Source of the DNA: Triglochin maritima
Lineage: Eukaryota; Streptophyta; Magnoliopsida; Alismatales; Juncaginaceae
DNA: 64,000 nt
Direction of reading: 5' to 3'
Assembly (NCBI GenBank): GCA_963682175.1
Contig: OY821784.1
Location: 26,641,621-26,705,620 of the forward strand
Shown one piece after another: positions 17,145 through 60,891 of this stretch (position 1 is the first letter of the stretch; every line of letters begins with the position of its first letter). The notes beneath the pieces were generated by a model. That model did no database searches and was not told the origin of the DNA. It worked only from the letters and a program-made list of their open reading frames with translations. The position numbers and the translations under genes are program-made.

Positions 17145-18629
17145 GTAGAATCGTAAGAGTCTCTAATTCTAATCATTTTTAAACTAATTACCTACTTACT
17201 AAATCAATCAAATAATGCACAGCGGAATTTAAATAAATACAAGCAAGTAAAGCAAACCACAATGATGACACCATATTTTTATAGAGGTTGAGCCTCCCGC
17301 CTACTTCTTGTCTTGCAAGCTCCGCTCACGTCTTCACTATCAACCTCGTTTTGGGTCGAGATTAAGCCTTTTACAAAACAAGCTCCACGAACACACTCGT
17401 GAGTTTTACTTTCGTCTCTCACAATCCGAGAGGAACACTTCAGGCTTTCACTGAAGTCCTTGCTTCTTTACAACAGAGATGTTGAGTGGAACACACTCTC
17501 TAACTTGAGAACACTTAGCTTAGGATGTGGAATTAATACTAAAATGTGGAAGTTTATGCTTGGAGAGTAGAATTGAGGATTGGGAGACTTGTGAGTTTCT
17601 CTTAGGTGCATATGACAATAGGAAGTGTAAGAGTTGTGTAATTGTGTCATAGGAACACCTATTTATAAGCTCTAAGTGAGTTATAGCCGTTGGGACAAGT
17701 TTGGTAAGTGTTTGTTGAAGAAACACAAAACAGCAAATTGTATGACCCAAAACTGAATGAGTTAAGTCGACTGGATCGGGTAGAACGGTCAACCGATAGG
17801 CAATTTTGAACTTGGTTCGGTGGACGGATAAAGGTTTGGTCGACCAATAAGGCTATAACTTAGGTACACTTAAGTTATCGGTCGAACACCGAATAGGTTT
17901 CGGTCGACGGAAAACTAACAGGTTCTACGGGGTTGACAAACATGAACAAATTCGGTCAACCGAAACAAGGTCTACGGTCGACCGAAAACCAACAAGCAGT
18001 TTGGGTTTGTCGAGACATCTTAAGTCCGTTCGACCGAACAAGGTCCTCGGTCGAAGATAGGAAAAAGTATTTTGGGGTATTTGTAAATAATACGAATACG
18101 ACTGTTGGTATAATACGACAATTCTAACGGTCGGAAATTTGTGTTGACTCAGACGACTGAAAAGGTCTGGATGGTCGACCGAAACCGAGCAGTAAAACAC
18201 TAACAGGATAATTGATCACTCGGTCAACCGAACGGTATGTTTCAGTCGACCGAACATGGGCAGGCAGTTCTGGTTTTTGTTTTGTGTTTTCCGGTCTAAG
18301 TTTGGATGATCTATTGAAGTCCAAACGATATGAAATTTTGTGTGTGACTTCTATAATGAACGTAGTGTGTGTTTGAGTAGTTTTTAGCTCAAGTATACTC
18401 AATTACACAAAGTTCCTAAGACCCAAAGAAATGCAAATTAGATGTCTTCAAATGAGCTTGATTACATGTCTTGACTTGATTTCATTTCTTCATTGTGTCT
18501 TGATCACTTGTACAAGTTATCGCAAAACAATATATATGCAATGCAATATGTGTGCTACTCTACATTGATTATAATTAAGATTATGTTGATTAAATTATCA
18601 AAACATAAATTAAGTCCAAAATGCCAACA
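17145..18629 (-). repeat. Solo LTR of the gag-only copia family (minus strand)
   Basis: On the minus strand it starts TGTTGGCATTTTGGAC (18629 downwards) and ends near 17145 in a degraded 'cgattctacc'. It matches the LTRs at 19079 and 37136 block by block. There is no PBS (ggtatcaga) at its left and no purine tract at its right, so it is a solo LTR. Possible degraded TSD: acatt (left) and acatc (right). The TATA-like 'ctatttataagc' is at 17659-17670. Its U3 carries seven paired CGGTNNACCG-like sites, starting at 17764/17786, 17818/17837, 17879/17901, 17953/17975, 18028/18049, 18150/18172 and 18221/18243. Confidence 0.8.
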
Positions 18630-19078: not shown

Positions 19079-20602
19079 TGTTGGTTTTTTGGCCTTAATC
19101 TATGTTTTGATGATTTAATCAACCTAATCTTAATTGTGATCATGTAGAGTAGCACACATGTTGCATTGCATATATATTGCTTTGTGCTAACTTCTACAGG
19201 TGATCAAGACTCAAGGAAGAAAGGAAATCAAGTCAAGACATGTAATCAAGCTCAATTGAAGACATGTATTTTGTATTTTTTGAGTCTTAGGAACTTGTGT
19301 AAATTGAGCATACTTGAGCTAAAATCAACTTAAACACACACTAGGTTCCTTAGAGAAGTCACACACGAAATTTCATATAATTTGGACTTCAATAGACCAC
19401 CCAAACTTAGACCGGAAAACACCAAACTATTAACCAGAATTGTCTGCCCAGATTCGGTCGACCAAAACAGACCGTTCGGTCGACCGAGTGATCATATATC
19501 CTGTTAGTGTTTAACTGCCTAAGTTAGGTCGACCATCCAGACCTTTTCGGTCGACTGAGTCTCAACATTTTTCCGACCGTTAGTTTTGTCGTATACCCAA
19601 CGGTCGTATTCGTATTATCTAAAATATACCCCAAATACATTTTGTGTATCGGTCGACCGAGGACCTTGTTCGATCGACTGAACTTATGTCTCTTGACAAA
19701 CCCAAACCTCCTGCTGGAAATCGGTCGACCGTGGACCTTGTTTCGGTCAACCGAATATAGCCTTGTTTGTCAACCCCAAAGTGTCTGGTGTGAATCGGTC
19801 GACCGAACCTTATTCGGTGTTCGACTGATCACTTAAGTGTACTCCATACATAGCGTTGGGCGGTCGACCGTTCCTTGACCGGTCGACCAAACTGAGTTCA
19901 AAATTGTCAAACGATCGACCGGACAGCCCGATCCGGTCGACCGAATTCACTCAGAATTGGGTCCTGCTTGTTTTCTGTTTTGTATATCTTACGCCAACTC
20001 TTACCCAATTAATCCCCGACTATATTCTCTCTGATGTTTATCTATAGAGTTGTAAAACACATTTTAACACAACTCTCCCACTACTATTTGTCCAATACAT
20101 TAAAGAGAAACTCAAATGACTCAAAGCCTCAAACCTTCCACACTTTAGTCTTAAATCCTATTCTTACTCAAGTGTGCTCAAGATTAGAGATTGTTGTTCC
20201 ACTCCTTTGTTGTGAAAAAAGCAAGGGTCTTGGTGAAAGCCCAAGACAAAGAGTAAAGACTTCGGTGAGAGCCCGAAGTGTACCTCTTGGATTGTGAGAG
20301 GAGTCAAGTTCGGCGAGGGTTGTTCACGAGTTTGAAGATTGTAAATACGTTCTCTCCCGACCCGGAACGGAGAGTGGTTAGTGATGTCGTGAGCGGAGCT
20401 CGAAGTGTCGAACGAAGCTTACAAGAGAGGACGTAGGCGGGTGGTCGAACCTCTGTAAAAATCTCTCGTCTCCATTGTGGTTTGCATTATCTTCCTAACT
20501 TGCTTGTTTGTTTTTAAATTCCACTGTGCATATCTTTGATCATCAAACAAGTTGATAATTAGCTTAAAAGTTATTAGAATTGTACACCCTCACGATCCAA
20601 CA
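19079..20602 (+). repeat. Solo LTR of the gag-only copia family with perfect TSD
   Basis: It runs from TGTTGGTTTTTTGGCC to CACGATCCAACA (1,524 bp). The 5 bp to the left (19074-19078) and right (20603-20607) are both ATATA, a perfect target-site duplication. There is no internal region, so it formed by LTR-LTR recombination of a complete insertion. U3 carries seven site pairs, starting at 19455/19477, 19526/19548, 19650/19671, 19722/19744, 19796/19818, 19861/19880 and 19912/19934; start-to-start spacing is 22, 22, 21, 22, 22, 19 and 22. Confidence 0.9.
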
Positions 20603-21841: not shown

Positions 21842-24800
21842 CTATTGGGCAGAATTTTCATGTAGTAAAACATATTCTCGGCTGCAGCCGAAAGATGATT
21901 AGGAGTGCGTAGAAATGAAACAAAGTGCACACAAACGACATGATAATAGTATAACCAGCAAAACTGTACCTGCTATTACCGAATTTGATAGTGTCTTTCT
22001 CGAAAAGCTCATAATATCGTTGAGGTTCAAGGAGATTATCCTGCATCAGGAAGAAAAAAATATTAAAAATGTGTTCAACATAACAATTTTCTTCTCGAGG
22101 AATCAATAACCCTCCATTTTAAATTTGTAAGCCAACTCGTGTGTGGTCTACAAACATTACTATCAGTTTCTCAAGTGAAAATATGATCAGCATTTGATCA
22201 TCTTCTAGCGAAGGTACATGAGACAACCACCCAGTTTCCCGAAAATTCAAATTTGCCAAATCTAATCCTATTGCATGCCCAGCTTCTTAGGTAACATATT
22301 TGGCCATCTGATATTTAACACCCAGTGAGGAATAACACTATCAGGACTCAGAACTCCTCTTCTTAAATTTACCCATTTAACAAAAGATGATACGATAATT
22401 TCACCATGGCTTCCGATTGGACTAAGTGAAAATCCGAGACATTATTATAAGATGATACATATTATAAGATGATACAGATATCCACGATGTAAAAGGGCAA
22501 GAATTGCCAAACCATTATTATGTGAACAAGGTTCATTACATGACTGATGTAGGTTCATGTCAACACCAACTAGACTTCCTAAGGGGAATCTTTTTCATGT
22601 ACCTTGTCAACAAACACAAGGATCGAAGACTAAAAGCAGCACATATTCTATCCTAGTACCAGTGTCATGTGCCGGTTGAAATTTGAAGCTTCTGATATCA
22701 AAGAAAATAGGGAGGCAGTAATGTGGCAAACATGGTCACAACTAAGACGTTGTATTTCTTTTCTCAAACTAGTACTGCAAGAAATTATGTGGCAACTTGA
22801 ACCTAAGATACCTAGATTAGAACAGCATATTAGTATGTTTTCTTTCTGAATTCTAGATTCTTCACATAAATATGTATCTTCGAACCTCAGAGGCTCTAGT
22901 CTGAGTCTGAGATCTAACTCCCGTTGGTCTTTCATGGAGAAAAACTATTTATGATAGATACATAACTCCTAAAGGATTTTAAAGGGCGCCATGAAAAACA
23001 CCTGGGTGTAAGCGGGAAAACGACGCAAAAGTCACATACATTTTAGTTAAGGCTTGACAAGGCAAAAAATTCCTACATTTTAGTCAAGTCTTGAGAAGGC
23101 AAAAGTCTACTGAGGAACAGTTGCTAACACTTGCATCTGGCTCCAAGACATCATAGTCACAACTAAATATGCATAAGGTATTCTGATCTGTGATATGCAG
23201 GAGCAATTTTTTTTTGCAATTTCAGCCTTCAGAAAGGAGAGAACTGGCCTAGATCAACTTAAAATACTAACACAGATCATCAGAAATAACATTTTAAAAC
23301 AAGCATTCAAATGAAAAAACCAAAGTTTGTAATGGACTAATAAATGCAACTACAAAGAATGATAATTGGTAACTCTGAATATCATGGTAAGTGAAAAAAA
23401 TGGTTTCTTAGAACTTCTAATGAGCATGTCAAGGACATGAAGAAATTTCGAAAGCCAATCGAGGCTCATATCAAGCAAGCACGAAAAATTAAATTGGTGA
23501 TATGGTGATAACATACATTGAGAAAAGTCCCGTTTGTACTTCCAAGATCCATCAAGTATGGCCTGATCAAAATAGAAAAATAATGATGGTCATCACAATT
23601 AAATTCAGAACAATAACGGAATAGCCTAATAAACTTAAAGATATAAGGCCACTGAAGAGAGGGAATTTGGAAATAAGACCTTAATTACCTGACTTGCTTT
23701 TTCATCATGCCATCTGGTTGTTCCTTCTCTACAACCCTGAAATGTAGACCAATTAGTCAAACTTTATTATCTATATTAACCTCAACTTTAAAATAATAAC
23801 ATCAATATACCTATACTGAATGATAGCATGTTGTTTACTGCAAGAAGGGTGATCTGTTGGAATGTCAGCAACCCTTCTTTCTCTTCCAAAAAGATAACAG
23901 CTCTGGCGATGTACATAGAGGGGGTCTGTATTTTTTATATTCAAAATAAAAAATAAAAATTGGAGACCTTAGCCATATGGTACATATCACGTAAGGTAAT
24001 TAACGAAGGCAACCAAAAGAATTGCAAGGTAAAAAGAGGTGCTGATTAAGGTCAAAAAATCAAAAATAGACAAATCTATATATGAACCATCTCCTTTTTA
24101 CAGAGCAATTGAATTTTTACAACTAAAACGAAAAAAAAAACAAAGTTTACAAATCGACGGACTATTACTTTTCCACCAGAAATTCACAGGATTGAAAACG
24201 TAAAGGCATACTCAATACCATTCAGTACTTCACCGGCCTTGAACACATACAAACGCCATCTTATATCTGGCTTGCGAGCATCTGCGGGCTCGGTAAATAA
24301 CAATGTCACACCTGAAAGATAGATATCGTCAAAATTCAAAAATAATTTTGAAGAGAACTGTCAAGCAACTTTGACTTTATATTCAAGCATATGCAAGATC
24401 ATGTGAACAATGGATAGCAGCATTACATCTAGAACTTTGTAGGATTTTTCTACCCAAAAAGTAGACAGAAAAAAAAGATAAGTAACATTTTATCTTGATC
24501 AAAGTCATTGCACCATGGAATACTATGTCGTTCAAAAGATAAAAGCCTCAACTGCAAACAACTTACAAAAACATAACTAGTTAAACTGTTCATGGGATTA
24601 TGAAAAGGGCATTGATTCAGACACCTGGAAAATTTATGAGTTAACTGAAAAATGTCTTGAAAATCCAGAAGTGCTCAATTAGTTAATCTTACAGATGATC
24701 TAAACCCAAGTGAGATCTCATTGGGGCGTTTCAGAAGCTTACTTCGCTAGAAGGTAGTTAGGTTGTTTGGAAAACAGGTCCTAAATATAAATTTCGGGGA

Positions 24801-27103
24801 AAGACATTCAGGTCAAGAATGGAAAAAATAGCTAATTACAAACATTATTAAACAGTTTATACCGGCGGTTGCAGGTAAATATTCCTGCATTAAGCCTTAA
24901 TACGTTTTCCCATGATAAGTCAATAGATACTTTAAACTACTGAAAAAACACAATAGGATCAGGCAAAGTGAAAGAAACAAAATGTGCTGCAAGTATGCAA
25001 GTGCCGAAGAATGTGTTAAACAATGTTCACTTACATATGTGTTTAGTTTCTTACTCATACAAGTCAATTGTAAGAACTTAAAAAATGTTACTTTTGGAAA
25101 CTAGCAATTTCTTTTGTGAATCTTCATCTAGTAAGAGCTGCAAGGCCAAGGGCCTAGCAAATCAAAGACATGTACCCAAGATAACACGAGAATCAGTGGA
25201 AAGTGAAAATAAATTGTAAAGAATCTATAGTGTACATAAACATATTACTGGGTCATAAAATCAGATATCTATAGCAAGGTCATCAAATTACTTTGACAGG
25301 TTTGTGGCAAATAAGACTTTCTTACCCCGAAAGCGATTTGTCTCTTCAGCAAGCTTTCCAGAGAGCTCGAAAGAGGGTTTTTCCTATAAAATTACTGAGC
25401 TTAAATAAGGAGGCAAAATATGCATCACTTGGCAAACTTTAGAATGACAAACAAGAATCATAGAAACAGAAGCACAAACACAATTTCTGTGAAGCATTAA
25501 AAGAAAGTTTTAGCATCACAGAAAAAAACCTTGCTGAGATATGCATGATGTAACTAATGAATACTGTAACTAGTATACAATGTACAAGAATTGTCTTTTT
25601 CGTCTAGATATGCATGATGACAACAAATAACTATAACATACTAATATACAGTTCAAAAAATTTAATAATCAAGATTTACCTTCTGTTTAGCAGTCAAAGC
25701 TTCTTCGGCAGCTTTCATTTTAGCAAGAGAATCTTGTTCACTGTCCTTGAAAAGATGCAAATGACTTTAAACGTTGAATCTAAAGCAAGTTAACATTATA
25801 TGCCAGGTATCTTCACTAAAAAGTTATGATTGCAATTGCTTCATTGAAGAGGTCATTTCACTGAAATTTTAATGAATAAAGATCCATGGTCATTTGTAGC
25901 GATGCTCTTTAGATGAAAAAAAATGATATTTTGATTTCTTCAAGAAATGTTTAACTTTCAGAATGAGCCGTAGATGAACTGCCAGGAATAGGATTGTCAC
26001 AAGAAAAAAATAACAAAGCTAGAAGCTCAAGGGTTATGAAATGTTGCTAGAATGCATCAAATTGCCGAGATTTTAAATTAACATTAAGAAAAACAAATAC
26101 ATTTGATGAACAATATAGTAACACAGACGGGCACATTTCCGGAGAGAAACTGTTAGCTTATAAGGAAAATTGTTGGAAAAGAACTAAAGAAAATCTATTT
26201 GATTGCTTGTAAAACAGCAGTCTTACCCAGGATGATCAGCTTCACTTCCATTTCTTCCCTGAAACGGAGAGTTGACTGTCAGTTATGAGATGTTAACCTG
26301 AGACAAGCTCTCTTTTTAAACAAGAGACGAGGATGGGCAGGAAGCAAAAACTAATACTGGCAAATCTTATCGTGCTAAATATTTTGGTTAACAGATCAAA
26401 CTAATAATAGCTAATACTAGCGAATTGTCAAAACCATCATAAGTTTACTCTATGAAATAAGTTCAGACACAACGGAAGGAAACAAATCATCACAAATTCA
26501 TCTATGAAATAAGCTTGTAGACATCGGAAGGAAACAAATCATCACAAGTTTACTCTAAGAATTAAGCTCGGACACATCAGAAGTAAACAAATCATCATAA
26601 CACACCAGAAGGAAAAATTATCATAAGTTTACTTTATGAAATAAGCTCATATAAAGAGATCACCGTGCCTTCTCCCACCACGAAGGGGACACCGAATGCT
26701 GCCTTCGCCTCCTCTCTCGCTCCACGGGTGACCCCGAACTCCGCCTTCCCCTCCTCGCCCTCTCAACCGGCGATCCCGACCTGTCTCTCCGCCTCCGCTC
26801 CACCGGCGACCCCGACTTATCCCTACGCCTCTGCTCTACCGGAGACCCCGATCGCTCCTTTCTCACTGCCCTGGAAGACCTATACTCGTCTTTCTCCCCC
26901 ACGGCGAGCCTCAACCGCTTCGTGCGAGGGGAAGGCGACTTAGACGCCTCACCACGGTCACTTGACCTAGCGGTGCCCTTCCTTTCGGTTCTCCGCGGCG
27001 ACCGCGACCAGGATGCCTCGTCCCGACGGGGCCGTGTTCGGGAATCGGAAACGTGGTGGGAGTGCCGCGGCGGCGGGGACCGGTGGTGGACTGCCGGGGC
27101 CAT
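21842..27103 (-). CDS. DDL: FHA-domain protein DAWDLE (DDL/SNIP1 family), ten exons, 324 aa
   Basis: DAWDLE is a nuclear RNA-binding protein that supports DCL1-dependent miRNA/siRNA biogenesis in plants and is related to animal SNIP1 (family knowledge). Exons on the minus strand are 27103-26693, 26258-26227, 25740-25680, 25383-25326, 24311-24219, 23925-23811, 23736-23689, 23562-23517, 22040-21970 and 21881-21842. All junctions are GT-AG and the phases join without a stop. Residues 1-137 are Arg/Ser-rich with four SGSPVE[RQ] repeats (85-134) and a basic PRTKRLRL. Residues 149-188 contain DSLAKMKAAEEAL and KPSFELSGKLAEETNRFRG, typical of DDL. The FHA domain (about 205-320) has G232-R233, S248-x-x-H251 and N283-G284 phosphothreonine-pocket residues. 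The end is SREYVLLHENSAQ. The start ATG has an in-frame TAG directly before it. The least certain point is the exon 1 donor (26693): it is the only GT donor in this stretch that keeps phase. Length is close to the roughly 314 aa I recall for Arabidopsis. Confidence 0.92.
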
Positions 27104-27268
27104 CTAGACCGGCATCTGAACTGCAAAGCCAATCGTGGATGCCAATTAAAAACCGTCGAACACTAAGGCCATCCCTTAACGCACAAAAAACACGGTCGTG
27201 ATGAGGTCGGTCATCTTCGACCGAATTTTTTTTTTTTTAACGCTGAAAAACAGCGGTTGAAGATGCCT

Positions 27269-27310
27269 GGGTCATCGACCTGGGCGTTTCAACGCCCGGG
27301 TCGACGACCC
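27269..27310. repeat. 42-bp hairpin in the MITE
   Basis: The left arm 27269-27288 (gggtcatcgacctgggcgtt) pairs with 27291-27310 with two mismatches and a 2-base loop. Smaller hairpins precede it: cggtc/gaccg around 27212-27229, and aacgctg/cagcggtt at 27239-27258. Confidence 0.8.
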
Positions 27311-27326
27311 GGTTTCGTAGGTTAGC

Positions 27327-27360
27327 CAACCCGGACGCGCCACGTGGCGCGTCCGGGTTG
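27327..27360. repeat. Perfect 34-bp palindrome centred on CACGTG
   Basis: Every base from 27327 to 27343 is the complement of the mirrored base from 27360 to 27344. The centre is CACGTG at 27341-27346, a G-box core bound by plant bHLH and bZIP factors (established). The outer part is caacccggacgcg and its complement. It sits about 225 bp upstream of the DDL start codon. Confidence 0.9.
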
Positions 27361-27721
27361 AATTTTATTTTTTTTTTTATTTTTTTTTTGTTTTGATTTT
27401 TGTTTTGATTTTTTTTAATTTTTTTGTTTGAGTTTTTTTATAAATTTTTTTTTTGAAAATTCGTTTTATAATTGTTTTGATTTTTTAGAAATTTTTTAAA
27501 TTTTTTTAAAATTTTAACCAAGATGGACCCCGAAATGATGTGGAGGAGAGATGTTGGTTGTTGTGGGTTGTGTTGGGTTGTGGTTAAGAGATGAATAGTG
27601 TAGGAAAGAGAAGAAGGTGGGTTGAGGAAAGAGAAAGCTGATGTGGAAGAGTGAGAAAGCTGATTTTGAAGAGAGAGAGCTGATGACCGGGTCGTCCAGG
27701 TCATGGTTAGTGATGGCCTAA

Positions 27722-27974
27722 CAAAAGAGTGGATAGTGTGTGGAAGTATGTTCACGCTTTGGAGATTCGGAACTGAAGATTGGGAATGGCGAGAAGAATA
27801 AGGATGTTTTATAAAAGGGCCATGCTTTATGGTCGGGATTAGGATTTAGAGGAGAAGAATGACGTTCATTTGGATTTTAGGGCGGTTAACGAGATACAAT
27901 CTCAAATTGAATCTATCATGAATGAGAAGAATGACACTCACTTGGATGAATAGGGTTGTTAACGAGCTAATTGG
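27722..27974 (+). other. Junction of the MITE flank and a truncated copia internal region, with small tandem repeats
   Basis: About 27830-27960 repeats phrases of the following gag region: 'caaattgaatctatcatgaatgagaa-aatga' occurs at about 27902 and again at about 28039. 'gagaagaatgac-ttca-ttgga' plus 'gttaacgag' occurs twice about 72 bp apart. A TATA-like 'gttttataaaag' is at about 27807. This is the truncated 5' side of the copia element. Confidence 0.5.
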
Positions 27975-28472
27975 ATGGGTTTAAAAGGATGTCAAAAGAA
28001 TAAACTAGCAAGAAAGAAAATTAATGAGCTGCAATATCAAATTGAATCTATCATGAATGAGAAAAATGAATTGCTTGCTAGTCATGATAAAATTGCATTA
28101 GAGAATACTAAATTGATTGATGAAATTACAACTCTAAATGCAAAATCTTCATGTAGTGACAATATTCAAGATCAAATTGCTAAAAATGTTCAATTACGAA
28201 AGGATCTTGAAAAATTCACAAGAGGAAAGAAAATGCTTGATATTCTTATTGGTAGTCAAAGACAATCTTTAGATAAGCATTGTATAGGCTATTATGTTAA
28301 CAACTACAAAAACCATGTAATTCACACTACTATGAATGGAAAGCATTTCTTTGTGAATAAAAGTTCCTCAAGTGTTTGGGCACCTAAGACCAAAATGGTT
28401 TGGGTACCAAAGATTAATGTCAAAGGACCTAAAATTGTTTGGGTACCAAAATCTTCACTTGTAGGTACTTAG
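27975..28472 (+). pseudogene. Gag C-terminal part of a truncated gag-only copia element
   Basis: A 165-aa frame: coiled-coil-like Asn/Lys/Glu-rich segment, LEKFTRGKKMLDILIGSQR, then three W[VA]P-K linker repeats (SSVWAPKTKMVWVPK, GPKIVWVPKSSLVG). In complete elements of the Angela/SIRE/Tork group this linker leads to the protease (family knowledge), but here a stop follows and no protease, integrase or RT exists before the 3' LTR. The N-terminal gag domain is missing through 5' truncation. Confidence 0.75.
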
Positions 28473-28719
28473 AAGGAAAGTCGATAGTGATCGGCTCAAA
28501 CTACAAAAGATCGATTCCAAGCTTCAAGGAAATCATTTGGATCGAATTCATAAAGTCGTCGTCGCTATCGAAAGGAGATTGGAACCAATACAAAATCGAG
28601 GATCAAAAGTTGGGTAATATTTTCAATCCTCTCAATTGTGACTATTTTAACATTTGGTTCTAAATCTAGGGATATTACATGATTAATTGATATCATACAT
28701 CATTGCTTTTAGGCCTTAG

Positions 28720-29007
28720 TGATAGGGGGAGCATATAATGTTATATCATATAATTAAGGGGGAGAATTATCTAATCCTATACCTTTACATCATATGCTTG
28801 TATTGTTTCCATTTGATTGATGTCAAAGGGGGAGATTGATAAGGATTGAGCTTCAATTGACTAATACTATGCACATTGTTAGGGGGAGCATCTTATACAT
28901 GCATAGTTTACATATATGAAGGGGGAGCAATCATATAGAAAAGGGGAGAACTTAAATTGAAACTCAAGCATTAAGATATAGATTTGTCATCATCAAAAAG
29001 GGGAGAT
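28720..29007 (+). other. Reiterated polypurine-tract-like motifs ending in the 3' PPT
   Basis: Seven G-rich purine tracts of the form (A/T)AGGGGGAG or AAGGGGAGA lie within 290 bp, at about 28724, 28756, 28828, 28880, 28921, 28940 and 28995. The last abuts the LTR start at 29008 and should be the working polypurine tract. The same reiteration occurs at 40171-40453, 55488-55770 and on the minus strand at 57243-57305. Confidence 0.75.
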
Positions 29008-30525
29008 TGTTGGCTTTTTGGCCTTAATCTATATTAATTTTGATGATTAATTAAACTAATCTTAATCAATCAACCTAGTCAATCAAAGTAAGCAAACACG
29101 ATTACATGCATTGCATATATGTTTGTATACTTGCAATTATCTTAATAGGTTGATCAAGACAATCAAGGAAATGAGCATTGGGACAAGGACATCAAGACTC
29201 AAGACTTGTAATCAAAGCTTTGGACAAAGACATGAAACTTTATATTTATTGAGTCCATAGGATTTTATGTAAACTTGAGCACTAGGATTCTGTCCCGTCA
29301 TTTCTCGGTAAACCGAACTTATTTCGGTTAACCGAACTCTACCTAGTTCGGTCCACCGAACACCTGTGAGATAACCGAATACTTCCCAACAGTGAAACTT
29401 AGGTGTTCTCTGGAATTGCCCCAACGGAAGACCGAAACACCTTCGGTCGACCGAATTAGCCTGGACCGGTTTTGGACTTTGCTCCAACGGTCGTATTTAA
29501 ATCTTGACCTAAAGCCAAATTGACTTATCCATATTCGGTACACCGAACTTCATTCGGTCAACCGAATCATATTGCTTTAGGAGCCCAACGGCTTTTTAAC
29601 TTGACCGTTATTGGTAAAACAATTTCCCACACATTGTCAGCGTAAAACCCGCGCTAACTTCGGTCTACCGAAGTATAGACAGTCAACCAAACTAGACATG
29701 AACAGAGCCCAATCAATTCTACTGTCCACCTCGGAACGGTGAACCGAATGGACTTCGGTGAACCGAACTTAATTAGGGCTAAATAGATAAAAGCTACTAG
29801 AGGTTGGTGAACGGTAATCCGATACTTAATCGGTCAACCGAGTTCATAGTTCAGACCAATGTTTCGGACTACCGTGTGGATAACGGTCGACCGAATCTGT
29901 CTCGATTTCTGGACGAACTTAAGTCACATCTTGCTTTCTCATTGGTCCATTCACCACCAACTCCCAAACGGCTATATGAGCTTGAAGGCTTATAAATATG
30001 ACCTCATTTGGTTGCTTTGGTTTTTCTTGAACACTTCCTATCTATCCAATACTCAAAGCCAAATCCTCTCCATCTTCAAGCTCTCAATCCACAACACTCA
30101 AGCCTAAAGTTCACCACTTGCATATCCAATCCAATATCATATCCAAGTGTGCTCAAGTATAGAGTGTTAGTTAGAGTGTGATTCAACTTCCATTTCAAAG
30201 AATCAAAGAGTTGTAAAAGCTTCGAGGAAGCTCCCTCTCGGGTTGTGAGAGTAGACACGAGCGAGGCAAGGTTGTTCGCGAGGCTCGGTGTTGTAAACGG
30301 CGTTGGTCTCGACCCGGAACGGAGATCGGTTAGTGGAACCGTAAGCGAGGCTCGGGGGATCGAGCGAGGCTTGCGAGGAGGACTAGGACCCGGGTGTGGG
30401 TGTCGAACCTCTCTAAACTTCGGTGTCGACGATTTGTGGTTTGCATTGTCTCTACTCCTTAATCCTTCGCTTAATATTTTAATTCCGTATTTTTCTAAGC
30501 GATTAGAGGGCCATAGATCCTAACA
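29008..30525 (+). repeat. 3' LTR of the truncated gag-only copia element, 19-bp paired-site subfamily
   Basis: It begins TGTTGGCTTTTTGGCC directly after the PPT and ends in 'gatcctaaca'. The TATA box TATAAATA is at 29991-29998. U3 contains eight pairs of CGGTNNACCG-like sites, starting at 29306/29325, 29349/29368, 29425/29444, 29536/29555, 29661/29680, 29737/29756, 29812/29831 and 29865/29884. Every pair is spaced exactly 19 bp start to start, with 9 bp between sites. The central two bases vary widely. The last 85 bp (from 30441) belong to the duplicated unit. Confidence 0.85.
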
Positions 30526-33500
30526 CAATTAAACGAAACGCAGCAACACCATGCATTACAATCATGATAAGTTTGCTGGCAGGGCTAGACCATCGACTTT
30601 TATCCCTCCCTTGGTCTTGGTTTGTCTCTAGTTGACCCGATTCATTACGGTCGACCAGAAATTCGACGTCCGGAAGAAGAGTTGCATAGTGATGAAGATG
30701 ATGACTGATGCATTGCATACATTGCATCATATGTCTTTCATTTAGATTAATTTTATATCAATAAATGCTACTAAGGTATGTGTTTAGTCTTATTTACAGA
30801 ATACATGGACCTGAATGCAAATTACCCATATCCCGAGCATAAACGCGTGCAAGAGACTCATTTCTATCATAAAGACCAAGTTCAAGATTATCTGGATTCA
30901 AATTGAAGTCCATCCAAACATAAAAGCATTCAAAGTCCTAATTACAAAAAGGCCAAGGACTTAAACACAAAAGTAGTCAGGGACTTAATTACAAAAAGCC
31001 GAGGACCCGACTGCAAATTACGAGTACCAAAATATTATTTTGGAGAAATTCTAAAGAAAAATCAATTTGGATCTCCAAATATATGAAGAAATAAATTTGG
31101 AACTTCCCGATATCTTACACGATGACAATTGGGTAGAGAACTCCATCATTGAACATAGATTCTTCGATGCAGCGAACAATCTGTTACGAAGTGATTGGCG
31201 GATGGAAGTTAGTCGTTCTTTCTGGGATAAACGAATTTTCCCGACCAAAGATGAGTTGGTTCATACTCTGTAGTCGTGACACATTAAAAAATATGTTCAG
31301 TATTCAGTTGTGGTTTCTTCAACAAAATGTTACATTGTTCATTGTTTTCGTCATGATGAGGATAATTGTAAATGACGTCTACATACGTTTGTCCTAAAAG
31401 GTTGTATATATATTTTAAAGTTAAAACGTACGACGCCGAACACAATTGTTCCAATCCAATGTTGCTGAATGACAACAAACAATGCAGTGTCAGTGCCGAG
31501 TTCTGTTAAATAGAACAGATCTTGGTGTTGCCGAGTTCAAATTAGACTCTAATCTCGAAATTTTACCAAGTGTTCCCCTATGAACAACTCGACGTTCTCA
31601 ACGTCGAGTTCTTCAAAGAAATTTTCCTAAAAAACAAAGTTGAGTTCTTTAAATACTAAAAAAAGACCCACCGTCATCACGTGTTGTCACGTGATCGTAG
31701 CGGGTCTAGTATGAAAAATATTTTTGGGAGAGTTTTACTTTAAAATTTTAAAAAAAATATCTCGAAAAAATTCCTTCTTTTTTATCTTAATACTCAACCG
31801 GGCGACCGGTACGTTACTATAATTAAATAGTCAAATTTCATTCTTTAATTTTTTTGTGTTTAAGAAACCTTTTGTTTTCTATCCAAGTCTATACAGTCGG
31901 TCTACAATTTTGTCTTCCAACTTCAAAATACATATGCTTACAGCCCATCAATATTTGTTTTTTAAAATTATTGCAAGTAACTTCTATGTCACAAAACGAT
32001 GCTATTAAATATGATTTGGAAGATAGACATCTTTACATTTCAAAAATCTTTCTCTTGCAATTATTTTACTTAAAGACTTTTATATTTGCTTCAAATTAGA
32101 CTACTCAATCAATATTACTAAAAATTGTTTATACACCAAGCAAAAAAAATATGGTATTCTAGTAGGTAATCATTATCGAAGTGGGTTTGCAGAATATTGT
32201 TTCTAAATATTTGCTAAATCCTAACCCTAATATACTTTCGCAAATCAAGCATCCCTTCATTCACGTTAGTTGTAAAAGATTCAAGGAATTTGCAAGAGAT
32301 CCAATGGTTGATATCATCTAATGGTGATAACAGGGCTCTTCAGTGAAGGCTAAGATTAATTAGAAGCTGGAATATAACAGTTCTTGTGTATCAGAAAAAA
32401 AGGGCCAAGAAAATCTACTTTTAGGAGGACATGTGTAACAACATAATTGGGTAGAGGGACCAAAATTATTTACTATACTATTTAGATTTAGGATTGTGAT
32501 GATCGAAGAAACTTATACAATTATTTTCCTGGAAATTATGTAGAGGTCCAGGTCACCCACTTATGTGTTATTGATTAAACAATATTACAAAGCTTGTGAA
32601 GGGTCTCAACCAAATTCCACTAAGACACTAGAATGACAAAGTAAATGGTCAACATGACATATATGAACAAATTTAAGCATGCATGTCAATTTCTTTCTGG
32701 TGTGCATTTAATATTTTTGGGGTTTGTCTTATGTAGTCTTTGACAAAGAATTGTTTAGAAGGGAAATTCATTTTTGTTCTAGCGGTTACTAATTTTATAG
32801 GTATAAAAGACCACATTCGTAACTTTGAAAGACTTTTTCTTTTTGCCTTATGTAACTACCATCTCTCCAGTTGGAGTGCCCCGTCGTTGACGTTGCAATC
32901 GTTCTATTTTGGGAGAAAATGCCTGCACCCAATGCACCAATACGTGGGGGCGTAATTTATTTAAGGGGAGTTTATCAATGATGACTTGGTCGAAGTGTTC
33001 CCTTTCCTAACCTCGTTTGCTTTTATTGTTAATTTTGTCCTCGTGAATTTGTTCGTTAGCTTTGAAGGGATTGAACTTTCTATGCTTCTCGACAAATGAA
33101 TCTCATTGTTTGGCATGCTTCTATTTATATTAAGAAACATATGACCAATCTAAAGGGGTGAATAAATGCAAACTAAATGTGCTACGATTCAACAAAAAGA
33201 GCTAGAGAAAGAAGTGAACTACACAAATGAAGACCGGGTAATGTATATAGGTCGGGTCGCCAATCGAGACCTACTCCTATCCTTGTCTCTGTAAGCCACA
33301 TTCAAGAACTACACTAAACCAATCTATGTTCGTAGTCCAAGATTGCATCGCATACAACCCTCACAAACTTAATCTCCCTCTCACACCCCAAAAAGTGACT
33401 CCCACGGTCAAGGTCAAGTACAACCTAATGGTAAATGATTCAAACTCTAACTTAAGCATTTGAAGTGGATGAACAATTAGGAGCAGAAGCGGTGGAAAGT

Positions 33501-33903
33501 TACAGTGTAAGCTTTCTCACAGAGAATGTGATTGATACCTAGAATAATCGATATTTTAAAGTAACCGGTTGGGAAACATAGGAGTGGCTACAAAGCAAAC
33601 ATGAGTTAAAAAGAGTGAAAACTTCGATTTTGGATGTCACAATAGTCAAACTAAGGGTCGTCAAGTTCGACCATGCAAAGCATAATTGTAAGTCAATGTC
33701 GAATAAAGTCGTGTCATTTGAGCCTTGGAGCCATACTAGGAAGTTCAACTTCTAAGCTTGGCTCTCAATTATTGAACCGAGTAGATTAATTTGTGACTTT
33801 AGTAAGACCATTTGTAACTATGACATCCACATCAGTTTTCTTTCTCATTCACATTAGTTTTCTCTATTCCCAACTCATTTCCCTATCTTTCCTACACTAT
33901 TCA
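30526..33903. other. Non-coding duplicated region with fold-back sequences and LTR relics
   Basis: No domain-bearing ORF; frames at 30503-30730, 31067-31273 and 32740-32955 are unrecognised. 30930-31040 has phrases like 'taattacaaaaag-c-aggac' repeated three times. Hairpins lie at 31586-31610 (arms aactcgacgtt/aacgtcgagtt, 3-base loop) and 31666-31706 (atcacgtg/cacgtgat inside gaccc/gggtc). 33170-33480 resembles a very diverged minus-strand copia LTR R/U5 segment ('aagaccgggtaatgtatatagg…cctactcct'). Copy 2 lies at 40546-43188 and 48479-49219. Confidence 0.5.
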
Positions 33904-35567
33904 TGTTATGTCCCTAAACCCATTTCGGGTGCTAATGAGAGGTTAGGAGGAGAGAGGAGGCTTTGCATGGGGAAGGGAAGAGGGGGCGTGCACTGTTGAT
34001 GGGTGAGAGGTGATGGGTTGGATGAGCAGGTTACTGTTGAGCTGAGTTTTGGTTTTATAACCCAAAACGTTTTCTTTCATTCTTCTTCTTCCTCTCCATT
34101 CCAGCACTCATTCCTCCGTTCTTCTTCTTTTTTTTCGGGTGTTCCAGAGGTGGTGGAGGCGGCATCGGAGCGGGTTGTGCGAGGCGCGACTTGATCGTGG
34201 AGCGATTCTCCGGTGTGCTCCATCTCGTGTTGAGGTATGCCGGCTTCTAGTGTGTTTTGGTTGCTCGCCCTCGTGGGAGGGTTGTGTTGGTCGGTCGGAG
34301 GAGGTCCCTTCGGGCGGTCGACCGAATGTAGTGTATTTTGCCGATTTTAACCTTCACCGGTCGAACGATGCCTTGTGGCGGTCGACCGGTCGTGCATTTT
34401 GCTGGTGGATCGGATTGCCTGTTTGTTTTCGGTCGACCAGTTCCTTATGGTCGTTCGACCGGAACTTAAGTGTACTAAGTAGAAATGCATGTTAGTTCGA
34501 CCGATTGTTTATATACGTTCGACTGTTATATGACTTAGAATTACTAGGATGCCCGGGTAGTTTTCGGTTGACCGGGACCCCTGAGTCGGTCGACCGATAG
34601 TTTTGAATTGATGTTGACCAGACTCTGGATTTTGACCTCGTATCGGTCAACCGGTTTTGGATCTCCGTTCGACCGTTTGGGACTTAGGTTTTGCGCAGTG
34701 AGTTCGACCGACGCAGACTTTCGGTCGACCGATTTCCTTGTGAAAGCGGTCGACCGGGTTGCCTCTTTCAGTCGACCGTTTCTGCACATAACTGAATTCC
34801 TGGTCCCTTTTGAATGCCAACTCTGTCCACGGAAACCCGTGTCCTCGCCTTGTGCGTGAGCCGGGAGGTGTCGGTGGGCGCGTACGTGTGCCTGCCCAGG
34901 GACCGCCGTGAGGAAGAGTGTGGGTGTTCGGGACGTGTCACCTCCATGTATGGATCGTGACTAATATGATGGATTGACTGGAATCATTGTAGAGTAGCAG
35001 GCCTGAAGGATCACAGATCCCAATGTATGATGATGTGCAGGCACACAACTGTCATTGGGTGAGGTGACTACGGGGCTACGGAGGTCGCTGCCCTGCTTTT
35101 ATAGCGGCGCGGTTGGTGTTTACGGCTCGTGGAGCCTGATGACCTGGCAGACTTCGGTCTGGACCCGTCCGATGATGTGCCGGACGTATTGATGGACCAC
35201 CGTTGCAGCGCCGGTGATGCCGCGGATGTTGTTCCGGCGATGATGATTGATGGGCCGATGATGTTGTTCCGGCTATGTTCCTCAGATGGGCACCTACTGA
35301 GATGATGATTGATGGACCAACCGAGCGATGGCTCCATTGGTGTGGTTTCGACCACGAAGTTACAGATATGTTTCTTATGGAGCAGACTTGGCGGATGCTC
35401 CCTGCCGAACCCCATGATTAATGTAGCCGCGTGTGGGGAGTGTCATGTCATGTTCCGTTAGACCGTATGTGCCTACGGTAGGTCTCCTTGGGAGACCCGA
35501 TGATGATTGTCGAACGGATGTCCCGTGTTACCCTTCGGGGGGAAATGTTTCTTACTGTTGATGATAT
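33904..35567 (+). repeat. Left part of a chromovirus-type solo LTR (copy 1)
   Basis: It starts TGTTATGTCCC; the 5 bases before it are ATTCA. In copy 2 the same sequence (49220-50883) is followed, after nested insertions, by its right part ending ATGTTACA and the same ATTCA. So the complete LTR is about 2.0 kb with a 5-bp TSD and no internal region. 'gttttataaccc' near 34050 looks like its TATA box. Eight pairs of CGGTCGACCG-like sites lie at 34292/34315, 34358/34379, 34430/34452, 34494/34516, 34565/34587, 34644/34666, 34701/34722 and 34747/34769. Frames inside it (such as 34139-34495) have no known domain. Confidence 0.8.
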
Positions 35568-36893
35568 TGTAGGATCGTGTGAGTAATGGGTGCACAATAC
35601 TAATCACTTTTATCCCTAATTACCTACTTGTTTGATCTATCAAAGATATGCAGCGGAATTAAGACAAAACAAGCAAGTAGGGAAGGAATATGCAAACCAC
35701 AATTGACACGGGGGATTTTTATAGAGGTTCGGCACCCCACCCGGGTCCTACTCCTCTCTTGCAAGCTCCGCTCGGATCACCGAGCTCCGCCCACAACTTC
35801 ACTAACCACTCCCCGTTCCAGGCCGGGAGAGAACGCCTTTACAATCTTCAAGCTCGCGAACAACCCTCGCCGAGCTTGGCTCCACCTCTCACAATCCGAG
35901 AGGGACACTTCGGGCTCTCACCGAAGTCTATAGTTGTGTCTTGGGCTTTCACCAAGACCGTTGCTTCTTGCACAATGATTGAGTGGAACAACACTCTCTA
36001 AACTTGAGCACACTTGAGTAGAATATGAATTAAGACTAAAGTGTGGAAGGTTTTGAGGTTTTGAGTGTTTGGATCTTCTCTCTAATGTTGGGGACAAATA
36101 TGTGTGAGAGAGTTGTGTTAAAATGTATTTTACAACTCTATTTATAAGCCTTAGAGAGAATAGAGTTGTTGGGGTTGATTGGGTGTGAGTTGATGTGTGA
36201 TACACAAAACAGAAATCCGTTGGACCCAATTCTGCCAAAAAACGGTCGACCGAATTAGGTAATCCATTCGATCGTTTGGTCAAATTTCAGCTATGACTTA
36301 AGTTAACGGTCGAACGGGCTCAGGGGATTGGTCGACCGAATTAGGAAAGTTTTGTTGGTTCGGTCGACCGTTAGGAAAGTTTCGGTCGACCGGATGTTTG
36401 GAAATTTGGGGTATTTGGGAATAATACGAATACGACCGTTGGGTATAATACGACAAAACAAATGGTTTGAAAATATGTGTAAACGGTCGAACGGAAAGGT
36501 TTCAACGGTCGACCGTTTTGGTCCAGGCAGTTCAAGTTTTGTTTAGGTGTTTTCCGGTTTTAGTTTGGATGATCTATTGAAGTCCAAATTATGTGAAATT
36601 TTGTGTGTGACTTCTATAGGGAACCTAGTGTGTGGTTGAGTAGTTTTTAGCTCAAGTATGCTCAATTACACAAGGTTCCTAAAGACTCAAAGAAATGCAA
36701 AATACATGTCTTCAAATGAGCTTGATTACATGTCTTGACTTGATTTTCCTTTCTTCATTGAGTCTTGATCACCTGTAGAGGTTAGCACAAAAAAATATAT
36801 GTGCAATGCAATATGTGTGCTACTCTACATGATCATAATTAAGATTAGGTTGATTAAATCGTCAAAACATAGATTAAGGCCAAAAAGCCTACA
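35568..36893 (-). repeat. 3' LTR of the minus-strand gag-only copia element (copy 1)
   Basis: On the minus strand it starts TGTAGGCTTTTTGGCC at 36893, directly after the purine tract whose complement is 'atctccccc' (36894-36902), and ends CGATCCTACA at 35568. The bases before it (35563-35567) are GATAT, near-matching GACAT at 60892-60896. TATA complement is at 36139-36146. Four site pairs, starting at 36243/36265, 36307/36329, 36361/36383 and 36484/36506, are all spaced 22 bp. Confidence 0.88.
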
Positions 36894-37135
36894 ATCTCCC
36901 CCTTTTTGATGATGGCAACCTATATCTTAACTATATCTTAATACATTGAATTCTTATATGTAAACTATGCATATTAATGCTCCCCCTAAGGATGTGCATA
37001 GTTTTTGTTTATTTTGGAATCAAATTTCAAGTTACCCCCTTAATTATCTCTCCCCTTTGACAGTCATCAAAAATGATATTTATAACACAAATTATACGTT
37101 TTAAGTTCAATGTGTATGTCTTGTAATGAAGTTAT
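36894..37135 (-). other. 3' untranslated internal segment of the minus-strand copia element (copy 1)
   Basis: The complement of several GGGGAG tracts is visible (tctccccc, gctccccct, accccctt, ctctcccct), matching the region before the 3' LTR in the plus elements. It is interrupted at 37135/37136 by the nested plus element; in copy 2 the rest resumes at 57241. Confidence 0.75.
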
Positions 37136-38615
37136 TGTTGGCTTTTTGGCCTTAATCCTTGTTTTTATGATTTAATCAACCTAATCTTAATCATAAGTAA
37201 TGTAGAGTAGCACACATATTGCATTGCATATATATTGCATGTGCTAACCTCTACAGGTGATTAAGATTCATGGAAGGAACAAAATCAAGTCAAGATTTGT
37301 AATAAAGCTATATGAAGACTTGTAATCTTGATTTTAGTTTGAGTCTTAGGACCATGTGTAAATTGAGCATACAAGAGTTAAAAACCAATCACTTACACAC
37401 TAGGTTCCTTATAGAAGTCACAAACGAAATTTCACATAATTTGGACTTCAATAGATTACCCAAACTTAGACCGGAAAACACTAAACCTGAACCTTAACTG
37501 TCTGCCCACATTCGGTCGACCGCAATAGGCCGTTCGGTCGACCGGATGATCATAGTATTATGTTTTGTGTTTCCCTGTCTAGTTTCGGTCGACCGCACCA
37601 TCTCTTTCGGTCGACCATTTGAACTCACTTTTCCGACCGTTATTTTTGTCGTATATACCCAACGGTCGTATTCGTATTAAAACAAAATATACCCCATATA
37701 CTTTTCCAACGGTCGAACCATCTACCCTGTCCGGTCGACCGTTTTATCTTGTCAAAATTCCCTGCTATCGGTCGATACTATTTCGTTCAACCGATCCAAA
37801 TTTCCCTTTACCGAAACGTAAGTTCGGTCGTCCGGTAACCCTGTTCGGTCGACCGTTTATTTAATAGACTTAAGTGTTCAGTCGACCATTCCATATTTCG
37901 GTCGACCGTGTCTTTAACGAACCTAAGAGTTCGGTCGACCGTTGCACCTTTCGGTCGACCGTTTCTGGACAGTTTTGCAGCCCGATTTTCTGCTTTGTGT
38001 GCTTTGCACAAAACCCAATCAAATCTTGTTCAAACGGCTAGAAATCTTTAGGAGCTTATAAATAGAGGATCAAGACTTGTTGTTAACACAACTCTCCAAC
38101 TCCAATTGTCCCAATTCATTAGAGAGAAAACTCCAATCCTCCACGCTCCAAATTAGCTACCGAAAGCCTAATTTCCACATCATTCATCACTCACACATCT
38201 AGCAATTGTTGTGCTCAATTAGAGAGTGAATCCCACTCAGTTACTTTTGTTGTCAAGAGAGTAAAGGCTCCGGTGAAAGCCCGAAGCATCCTTCTCGGAT
38301 TGTGAGAAGATGATTCCAAGCTCGGCGAGGGTTGTTCGCGAGTTTGACGGTTGTAAGGCTTTGTCTCCCGGCTCGGAACGGGGAGCGGATAGTGAAGTCG
38401 TAGGCGGAGATCGATGATCCGAGCGGAGCTTGCAAGAGAGGACTAGGACCCGGGTGGGGTGTCGAACTTCTATAAATCCCCCGTGTGCTTGTGGTTTGCA
38501 TTTTCTATTCCCTACTTGTGTATTTGTTTATTCCGCTGCGCATTTGATTGCTTAATCGAGTAGAGAATTAAGATTAGCCATCAATTGTGGACCCATAGAC
38601 CCACACGATCCTACA
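37136..38615 (+). repeat. 5' LTR of the nested plus-strand gag-only copia element (copy 1)
   Basis: It runs from TGTTGGCTTTTTGGCC to ACGATCCTACA, followed by TTTGGTATCAGAG. The TATA box TATAAATA is at 38057-38064. Paired sites start at 37513/37535, 37586/37608, 37710/37732, 37769/37784, 37825/37846, 37879/37899 and 37932/37952; spacings are 22, 22, 22, 15, 21, 20 and 20. Inverted relative to the LTR at 35568-36893, only 242 bp away. Confidence 0.9.
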
Positions 38616-38617
38616 TT

Positions 38618-59014: not shown

Positions 59015-60364
59015 TGTAGGATCGTGTGAGTAATGGGTCCACAATACTAATCACTTTTATCCCTAATTACCTACTTGTTTGATCTATCAAAGATATGCAG
59101 CGGAATTAAGACAAAACAAGCAAGTAGGGAAGGAATATGCAAACCACAATTGACACGGGGGATTTTTATAGAGGTTTGGCACCCCACCCGGGTCCTACTC
59201 CTCTCTTGCAAGCTCCGCTCGGATCACCGAGCTCCGCCCACGACTTCACTAACCACTCCCCGTTCCGGGCCGGGAGAGAACGCCTTTACAATCTTCAAGC
59301 TCGCGAACAACCCTCGCCGAGCTTGGCTCCACCTCTCACAATCCGAGAGGGACACTTCGGGCTCTCACCGAAGTCTATAGTTGTGTCTTGGGCTTTCACC
59401 AAGACCGTTGCTTCTTGCACAATGATTGAGTGGAACAACACTCTCTAAACTTGAGCACACTTGAGTAGAATATGAATTAAGACTAAAGTGTGGAAGGTTT
59501 TGAGGTTTTGAGTGTTTGGATCTTCTCTCTAATGTTGGGGACAAATATGTGTGAGAGAGTTGTCTTAAAATGTGTTTTACAACTCTATTTATAAGCCTTA
59601 GAGAGAATAGAGTTGTTGGGGTTGATTGGGTGTGAGTTGATGTGTGATACACAAAACAGAAATCCGTTGGACCCAATTCTGCCTAAAAACGGTCGACCGA
59701 ATCAGGTAATCCGTTCGATCGTTTGGTCAAATTTCAGCTATGACTTAAGTTAAGTTAACGGTCGAACGGGCTCAGGGGATTGGTCGACCGAATTAGTCTA
59801 GGCACTTCTGGGAGACCAAATTGTGTTGGTTCGGTCGACCGTTAGGAAAGTTTCGGTCGACCGGATGTTTGGAAATTTGGGGTATTTGGGAATAATACGA
59901 ATACGACCGTTGGGTATAATACGACAAAACAAACAGTTTGAAAATATGTGTAAACGGTCGAACGGAAAGGTTTCAACGGTCGACCGTTTTGGTCCAGGCA
60001 GTTCAAGTTTTGTTTAGGTGTTTTCCGGTTCTAGTTTGGATGATCTATTGAAGTCCAAATTATGTGAAATTTTGTGTGTGACTTCTATAGGGAACCTAGT
60101 GTGTGGTTGAGTAGTTTTTAGCTCAAGTATGCTCAATTACACAAGGTTCCTAAAGACTCAAAGAAATGCAAAATACATGTCTTCAAATGAGCTTGATTAC
60201 ATGTCTTGACTTGATTTTCCTTTCTTCATTGAGTCTTGATCACCTGTAGAGGTTAGCACAAAAAAATATATGTGCAATGCAATATGTGTGCTACTCTACA
60301 TGATCATAATTAAGATTAGGTTGATTAAATCGTCAAAACATAGATTAAGGCCAAAAAGCCTACA
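59015..60364 (-). repeat. 5' LTR of the minus-strand gag-only copia element
   Basis: On the minus strand it runs TGTAGGC (60364) to CGATCCTACA (59015). Site pairs recur as in 50884-52209, for example about 59691, 59760 and 59838 with partners 22 bp on. Unusually, its other side (60365-60415) is the PPT plus about 35 bases of 3' internal sequence of another copy, so one LTR is shared by two internal regions. Confidence 0.85.
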
Positions 60365-60891
60365 ATCTCCCCCTTTTTGATGATGGCAACCTATATCTTA
60401 ACTATATCTTAATACGGTCGACCGAAAAGGTCTGGACGGTCGACCGAACTTAGGCAGTTAAACACTAACAGGATATATGATCACTCGGTCGACCGAACGG
60501 TTTGTTTGGGTCGACCGAATGTGGGCAGACAATTCAGGTTAATAGTTTGGTGTTTTCCGGTCTAAGGTTGGGTGGTCTATTGAAGTCCAAATTATATGAA
60601 ATTTCGTGTGTGAGTTCTCTAAGGAACCTAGTGTGTGTTTAAGTTGATTTTAGCTCAAGTATGCTCAATTTACACAAGTTCCTAAGATTCAAAAAATACA
60701 AAATACATGTTTTCAAATGAGCTTGATTACATGTCTTGACTTGATTTTTTTTCTTCCTTGAGTCTTGATCACCTGTAGAGGTTAGCACAAAGCAATATGT
60801 GCAATGCAATATGTGTGCTACTCTACATGATCATAATTAAGATTAGGTTGATTAAATCATCAAAACATAGATTAAGGCCAAAAAGCCAACA
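60365..60891 (-). repeat. PPT fragment joined to a truncated LTR of a second subfamily
   Basis: 60365-60415 equals 36894-36944 (PPT and internal 3' end). At about 60415 it switches inside a CGGTCGACCG site to LTR sequence matching the complement of 19079-19560, which ends TGTTGGC at 60891. Pairs include 60415/60437 and 60487/60509. The next five bases, GACAT, match the GATAT at 50879-50883 with one change. Confidence 0.75.

Follow-up and report, generated by a model that had tools for sequence, protein, structure and literature searches.

Sirevirus LTRs of Triglochin maritima carry palindromic boxes in pairs of family-specific offset, with a 10.5-bp register between pairs as a cross-family statistical regularity

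In the portions of the published accounts available to us, Sireviruses are described as plant-specific (PMC2829016), and they form a large share of some plant genomes, with 21% given for maize B73 (PMC10760457). Bousios et al. 2010 (PMC2829016) reported palindromic repeated motif (RM) boxes with a CGG-CCG core, at least eight and up to 32 per element, which start 200-400 bp into the LTR and lie in its upper half, upstream of the TATA box, in a CpG-rich region. The RM of the Vitis Sirevirus is CGGTCGACCG, and the boxes described here are of the same motif kind. However, that study handled RM boxes as single units for which a common binding factor was not identifiable, whereas here they are paired with a fixed offset; the portions of PMC2829016 available to us make no mention of a pair offset or a helical register, and there the role of the LTR palindromes was left open in 2010. 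In the maize Sireviruses Opie and Ji, the cis-regulatory LTR region likewise contains palindrome clusters (PMC10760457, PMC5311732), but the maize palindrome, CACCGGACNNNGTCCGGTG, differs from the present box (PMC10760457), and those palindromes were treated as RNA structure and as a small-RNA target (PMC10760457, PMC5311732). This leaves two candidate roles for LTR palindromes, either regulatory sites or, in the later work, RNA structures that attract silencing. None of the titles among the matches listed pointed to a paper on how boxes in Sirevirus LTRs are spaced or helically registered. The boxes reported here are the already published repeated motif of Sireviruses, and the spacing rule is, as far as these matches show, the addition of the present work. 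In auxin response factor repeats and in enhanceosomes, protein dimers bind and the spacing of their sites sets cooperative binding. The sequences in those systems are different, and arrays of the type described here have up to 16-17 boxes.

The stretch of DNA that was analysed, referred to as the window, comprises 64,000 nucleotides of T. maritima (GCA_963682175.1, contig OY821784.1, positions 26,641,621 to 26,705,620). On its plus strand an LTR of Sirevirus type and 1518 bp lies at 29008..30525 (TG...CA, with ends TGTTGG and CCTAACA), which is a 3' LTR of a Sirevirus (Ty1/copia) of an apparently non-autonomous family. Several Sirevirus traits are found around it. Five copies of the polypurine tract AGGGGGAG start at 28724, 28757, 28827, 28881 and 28920 on the plus strand (span 28724..28927), 5' of the LTR, and are followed by a terminal tract AAAAGGGGAGAT with the AT/TG attachment site at 28996..29009 on the same strand; the terminal octamer is one letter off the consensus in this copy and exact in relatives at locus L026. 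The attachment site reads GGGGAGAT/TGTTGG at 29000-29013, and an inverted repeat seen by eye surrounds the junction of tract and LTR, with TCATCATCAAAA directly 5' of the tract and TTTTGATGATTA some 30 bp into the LTR. The LTR contains 16 RM boxes with the CGG-CCG core, the first of them 298 bp into the LTR, and their span of 588 bp is slightly above the 300-500 bp given for Sireviruses in the available portions of PMC2829016. The junction of 5' LTR and primer binding site, CA/ATTGG-TATCAGAGC, was found among relatives in L026 only and is absent from the window copy, as fits a 3' LTR; no primer binding site lies 3' of the LTR at 29008-30525. The L026 relatives measure 1513 bp and have the primer binding site ATTGGTATCAGAGC as well as several polypurine tracts. 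Upstream of the window LTR (20600-29007) there is no long open reading frame, the longest open stretch having 169 codons, and in nine fetched loci at least two LTRs of this family are 3.64-4.03 kb apart. Because this distance leaves no room for a complete coding element and no long reading frame lies upstream, the family looks non-autonomous. L026 itself (C3:26729042-26739041) is a head-to-tail array of the family in the order LTR-internal-LTR-internal-LTR with a period of 3650 bp; two compared units are 99.9% identical, and listed places continue to C3:26760274.

A TATA box, TTATAAATA, is located on the plus strand at 29990..29998, 3' of the last RM box and about 95 bp past it, while the mean given in PMC2829016 is 37 bp past the CpG island. 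The start of TATAAATA is 107 bp from the start of the last box, and a distance of 107-108 bp recurs in 21 of the 39 clusters of the window-LTR family, namely those with an exact TATAAATA within 260 bp. Ten AACGG/CCGTT cores, which we take to be Myb-like, were also seen in 29423-30322 of the LTR, four of them in outer halves of boxes (29423, 29735, 29810 and 29882).

The original prediction had described sixteen CGGTNNACCG-type sites in this LTR as eight pairs with a common offset of 19 bp, and all 16 coordinates and all eight offsets proved correct. On the plus strand, pair 1 (29304..29336) has its sites at 29306 and 29325, pair 2 (29347..29379) at 29349 and 29368, pair 3 (29423..29455) at 29425 and 29444, pair 4 (29534..29566) at 29536 and 29555, pair 5 (29659..29691) at 29661 and 29680, pair 6 (29735..29767) at 29737 and 29756, pair 7 (29810..29842) at 29812 and 29831, and pair 8 (29863..29895) at 29865 and 29884, each at an offset of 19. 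Start-to-start distances between successive pairs vary as had been said (43, 76, 111, 125, 76, 75 and 53), and for pair 4 the identical 33-mer exists at many other places of the genome among the matches listed. Scored over the eight core letters CGGT/ACCG, 11 of the 16 sites are free of mismatches; one mismatch is found at each of 29425, 29812 and 29865, two at 29680 and three at 29368. The right box of pair 5 is decayed, and that of pair 2 is decayed to its right half. In the relative L010, 16 boxes with at most one core mismatch, including the right box of pair 2, form the same eight pairs, so the weak sites of the window LTR are to be read as decayed copies of real sites. The box distances in L010 are 19-24-19-47-19-93-19-105-19-57-19-56-19-34-19, an order similar to that of the window LTR. 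When 20 sites (score of at least 8 of 12) were placed at random, eight pairs at 19 bp did not occur in any of 20,000 trials, nor did five pairs among 13 sites (score of at least 9) in another 20,000. With stricter lists the 19-bp excess is weaker, the best 7, 8 and 11 sites being matched in 1,746, 146 and 23 of 20,000 trials. The match score at 19 bp from a strong box averaged 6.9-7.0 of 12, compared with 4.9 at the next best offset and 3.0 overall.

The earlier reading that geometry is constant over variable sequence was borne out in other copies of the family. Of 22 copies extracted two were identical, which left 21 distinct ones including that of the window, and the offset is 19 bp in 167 of their 168 pair instances, the sole exception being a 19-bp deletion. 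Pairwise differences among the 21 copies are lowest in the cores (0.028), followed by the rest of the LTR piece (0.060), the outer TT/AA (0.072), the stretches between pairs (0.079), the 5-bp spacer (0.130) and the centres (0.136); cores are conserved over spacers, and spacers and centres drift while the 19 bp is kept. The two-base centre is rigid in length: across the window and L007-L046, TCGGT-N2-ACCGA was counted 407 times, and none of the other spacings between N0 and N8 more than five times. Seven distinct gap runs are present in the cluster alignment. Six of them (10, 1, 4, 9, 1 and 11 columns) are located between pairs, and the seventh, of exactly 19 columns, lies within a pair unit. 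The two runs that several copies share and that shift a distance by over 1 bp comprise 10 and 11 columns, and each amounts to one helical turn. As evidence for steps of a helical turn this is only suggestive, as there are two such events only and the runs of 4 and 9 columns, each seen in a single copy, do not fit.

Offsets could also be kept without selection if tandem duplication had multiplied pair units and blocks, from which both offsets and multiples were then inherited. Duplication of pair units does occur, as spacers in L009 (family 3) are alike (0.48 vs 0.269). Spacers also look alike by eye in the contig L104 described below, where duplication may therefore contribute; a tandem repeat of period 53 lies at 37844-37964 of the window, three box clusters of the window are present again as block duplicates, and in the window LTR the right-box centres are more alike (0.48) than the left-box centres (0.25). 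However, the offset of the window LTR is exact even though flanks and spacers of its pair units are no more alike (0.21, 0.21 and 0.28) than composition predicts (0.263), so recent tandem duplication of the pair unit does not explain it, and the between-pair distances inside this LTR vary. Dissimilar pairs drawn from the genome lists have exact offsets as well, although their spacers are not alike (0.248 vs 0.255 expected for 18 pairs at offset 19; 0.264 vs 0.266 by composition for 20 pairs at offset 22), and the register described below persists with one representative per family. Duplication as the whole cause is ruled out for the window LTR by the lack of flank and spacer similarity, and a history of duplication without selection is unlikely as the general account.

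Eleven further clusters of at least four boxes, which the original prediction had missed, were found in the window, and in each of them 22 bp is the most frequent of the offsets up to 45 bp. A cluster of another LTR family with 22-bp pairs lies at 17786..18252 and a second with 22-bp pairs at 19455..19943. Pairs at 22 bp also make up the clusters at 34315..34778 (near-identical duplicate at 49631-50094) and 36243..36515 (duplicate at 51559-51831), and two clusters within 59690..60517 (59690-59986 and 60415-60517), while the cluster at 37513..37961 has pairs at 22, 21 and 20 bp, a duplicate at 52829-53277 and a relative at 56148-56597. Three of the eleven are thus block duplicates of three others, those that start at 34315, 36243 and 37513. 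The window contains large recent duplications, 30428-33167 with 40448-43188 (99.6%) and 33162-40462 with 48478-55779 (99.85% identical), and in this zone an LTR start at 40454 is apparently fused to LTR-end sequence. An intact-looking copia element at 43189-48479 has identical 426-bp LTRs and an open frame of 1491 aa with gag, integrase and RT domains; each of its LTRs has one weak box and no pair.

BLAST comparison sorted 75 clusters of at least five boxes, from 40 fetched loci and the window, into ten groups. Offsets are mostly 19 bp in the window-LTR group (39 clusters) and in groups 2, 3 and 9, mostly 22 bp in groups 1, 4 and 5, and 20-22 bp in the small groups 6-8. One caveat of this sample is that 37 of the 40 loci had been chosen at an offset-19 match, so offset 19 is enriched in it. 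Free of that bias are the eleven other clusters of the window, which favour 22 bp, the genome-wide counts given below, and 100 unselected exact boxes on C1. The latter gave offset 19 six times, 24 five times and 22 four times, while none of the remaining offsets up to 60 bp came up more than twice. Pairs were also counted in the genome (1.063 Gb, 167 contigs) as two 10-letter cores with at most one mismatch, and these repeat counts are lower bounds: at least 63,875 pairs at offset 19, 15,015 at 20, 43,035 at 21, 100,906 at 22, 8,698 at 23 and 16,746 at 24. This gives two peaks, at 19 and at 21-22, with fewer pairs at 20, 23 and 24. Reversed-pattern controls at offsets 19 to 24 gave 9, 52, 10,493, 13, 6 and 8 matches; the 10,493 at offset 21 presumably represent some other repeat, which may carry GCCANNTGGC pairs. 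Exact 12-letter single boxes number 137,532 genome-wide, compared with 3,261 in the control. The proposed 19-bp rule therefore persists as a genome-wide peak, but only some families follow it, and others have 21-22 bp.

The wider regularity lies between the pairs. It was noticed by eye first, when neighbouring-pair distances in the 22-bp groups were seen to resemble multiples of the helical turn. For the test, boxes up to 26 bp apart were kept as a rigid unit, the units were jittered within 10 bp either way, a range of two whole periods (an earlier phase test with jitter of 8 bp either way was superseded by this version), and the mean cosine of between-unit distances was taken at 25 trial periods from 8 to 14 bp. 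Ten group representatives gave a mean cosine of 0.202 at 10.5 bp (498 box pairs, p 0.0003, z 4.2-4.3), followed by 13.0 bp as the next best period (z 2.2), and 200 random choices of representative gave z of 3.5-5.5 (central 90%). Taken singly, groups 5 (p 0.004) and 8 (p 0.006) are significantly phased, and groups 1-4, 6, 7 and 9 are not (p 0.06-0.44); in group 1, the main 22-bp group, 5 of 12 members have p of at most 0.05, two of which are duplicates of each other. The window-LTR group alone is not significantly phased (p 0.16), and the 10.5-bp register is a statistical regularity across families.

The same register was found at fresh places on C1. Three genome-wide lists provided 239 boxes between 42 and 802 kb, which fall into 36 clusters of at least three boxes. 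After removal of look-alikes, 24 clusters gave a mean cosine of 0.35 (p 0.0001); without one stretch that had been fetched earlier the value was 0.38 (p <0.0001), and for the unselected boxes alone it was 0.323 (21 clusters, p <0.001). When two lists were added and C1 was covered up to 3.37 Mb, z rose to 7.5 with 54 clusters, and 19 strictly deduplicated C1 clusters gave 0.246 (p 0.0005). It should be noted that families of the first set are also represented at the C1 places; this is therefore a replication of places and not of fully independent lineages. C1 and the representatives, pooled and deduplicated again (19 clusters), gave 0.216 (p 0.0007) with a best period of 10.50 bp (bootstrap 10.46-11.18). 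When 240 pooled distances up to 250 bp were folded on one turn, the seven bins held 60, 32, 31, 18, 20, 29 and 50.

Other measures gave mixed values. Across the 75 clusters, 385 neighbour gaps of 27-130 bp, among which the window-LTR family dominates, had a mean cosine of 0.06 for a period of 10.5 bp and 0.34 for one of 11.5 bp, while their 53 distinct values had 0.32 and 0.04; 37 pooled deduplicated neighbour gaps had 0.15 and 0.19, and their 29 distinct values 0.26 and 0.14. Neighbour gaps alone are thus not clear as evidence for the register. Phasing of exact pairs on C1 among themselves was weak: exact 19-bp pairs gave z 1.2 for distances up to 130 bp and z 2.8 up to 260 bp, where 11.4 bp did better (3.3), and exact offset-22 starts on C1 gave z 2.8 at 10.5 bp (n=21, up to 130 bp), with 7.3 bp at the top when all longer distances were counted. 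Changes of interval between related clusters had a mean cosine of 0.02 in the window-LTR family (22 values) and 0.26 in the others (98 values), but are confounded by gains and losses of boxes and were set aside as a register test.

A periodicity of this kind might also arise from chromatin, if GC-rich boxes at helical intervals set the rotation of nucleosomes or marked an array for methylation readers, with no specific dimer involved. The box cluster of the window LTR does have a CpG observed/expected ratio of 1.34, compared with 0.26 upstream, at a GC content of only 0.449, and 31 of its 40 CpGs fall inside boxes. The register is likewise local: the mean cosine is 0.26-0.38 for separations of 50-249 bp, -0.10 for those under 50 bp (n=12), and -0.01 to 0.19 for longer ones, where the register is weak or absent. 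However, a nucleosome code calls for neither a palindrome of 14 bp whose centre is exactly 2 bp, as seen in the 407 occurrences against at most five, nor a single exact pair offset. Nucleosomal DNA has a period of about 10.2 bp, and the best period of 10.50 is closer to that of free DNA, though the bootstrap range extends from 10.46 to 11.18. We regard an origin in chromatin as very improbable.

The other alternative is an RNA or small-RNA constraint, with structures of the kind proposed as small-RNA seeds for maize Sirevirus palindromes: the pairs would form hairpins in the transcript, inner half to inner half with a loop of 5 or 8 nt, and the spacing would be the loop length. The 611-nt cluster has a predicted fold of -187.1 kcal/mol compared with a mean of -147.7 for 20 shuffles (z -7.3), several of the predicted stems connect both boxes of one pair, and in the available portions of PMC10760457 a small-RNA excess is reported at maize regions with palindrome clusters. 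Like palindromes in any pair would fold in this way without selection, though. The inner flanks of 19-bp pairs are complementary at 18 of 36 positions (13.2 when shuffled, P 0.058), but those of 22-bp pairs at only 9 of 40 (10.6 expected). Box-to-box complementarity of the offset-19 centres is 13 of 36 (10.2 when shuffled, P 0.17), which is no significant covariation, and in the window LTR 3 of 16 centre letters pair as an RNA stem would, in agreement with the original prediction that the centres of a pair do not covary. A rule of loop length is also silent on the distances between pairs, and at a period of 11 bp z was -3.3 in the 54 clusters and -1.3 after deduplication, so the 10.5-bp register fits B-DNA and not A-form RNA. 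An RNA or small-RNA constraint as the cause of the spacing is accordingly quite unlikely, while a role of RNA in addition is possible given the strong predicted fold. A register of this kind is a signature at the level of the DNA and is not predicted by RNA folding; it therefore tips the question of DNA or RNA and makes it testable.

The box cluster is probably a U3 enhancer on which a dimeric DNA-binding protein assembles pairwise and for the most part on a single face of the helix. In this model each 14-bp palindrome, TTCGGT-NN-ACCGAA, in the U3 of a plant Sirevirus LTR would be bound by one symmetric protein dimer, as the rigid 2-bp centre with its dyad symmetry suggests. In the 18 dissimilar 19-bp pairs the within-box dyad reaches the variable centre (22 of 36 vs 12.5 expected, P 0.0002); the centres of the 20 dissimilar 22-bp pairs are mostly CG and hence uninformative. 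Two dimers would bind jointly as a pair, with centres 19 bp apart in the window-LTR family and 21-22 bp apart in other families, which is about two helical turns, and contact between them is suggested by offsets that stay exact while the spacers drift. As 19 bp corresponds to 1.81 turns, boxes paired at this offset do not share exactly one face. Pairs 50-250 bp apart tend to the same 10.5-bp register, which points to B-DNA, so that the bound proteins may sit mostly on one side of the DNA, where they could make contact with one another and with the TATA complex, which lies about 100 bp downstream. Of the 'dimer of dimers' enhancer that had been proposed earlier, the part that stands is a geometry kept while the sequence between sites drifts; joint binding by dimers, cooperativity, activation of transcription and a host origin of the protein are suggested by sequence patterns. 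On balance we lean towards a wider reading, namely that Sirevirus LTRs carry a helically registered scaffold in which pairs about two turns apart share a 10.5-bp register over about 250 bp while the intervening sequence drifts. This would be the footprint of a putative plant dimeric DNA-binding protein on one face of the helix at about a hundred thousand sites in one genome, with an offset of 19, 21 or 22 fixed per family. To our knowledge, none of the heat-shock, W-box, MYB or LBD sites seems to match the box, and the combination of palindrome, offset and register provides a search image for finding the protein.

Boxes were also sought in other collections, with two stretches in viral contigs and 90 in GTDB contigs (80 of the 90 listed). 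A cluster of at least four boxes was present in 12 of the 82 loci examined there, mostly as even tandem repeats of 20-23 bp. One of these 12, L104, is a 3.2-kb contig filed under an Acidobacteriota MAG, with GC 0.44 and a longest open stretch of 124 codons, and no Sirevirus polypurine tract or primer binding site motifs were found in it. Its box distances of 21, 53, 94 and 21 (offset-21 pairs, 2479-2680) are all near multiples of 10.5. Our guess is that L104 is plant DNA, possibly of a second species. L049, L052, L063 and other rumen Bacteroidales contigs have TCGGTNNACCGA pairs at offset 23 in short inverted or tandem repeats, and these pairs are spread over many contigs of few MAGs.
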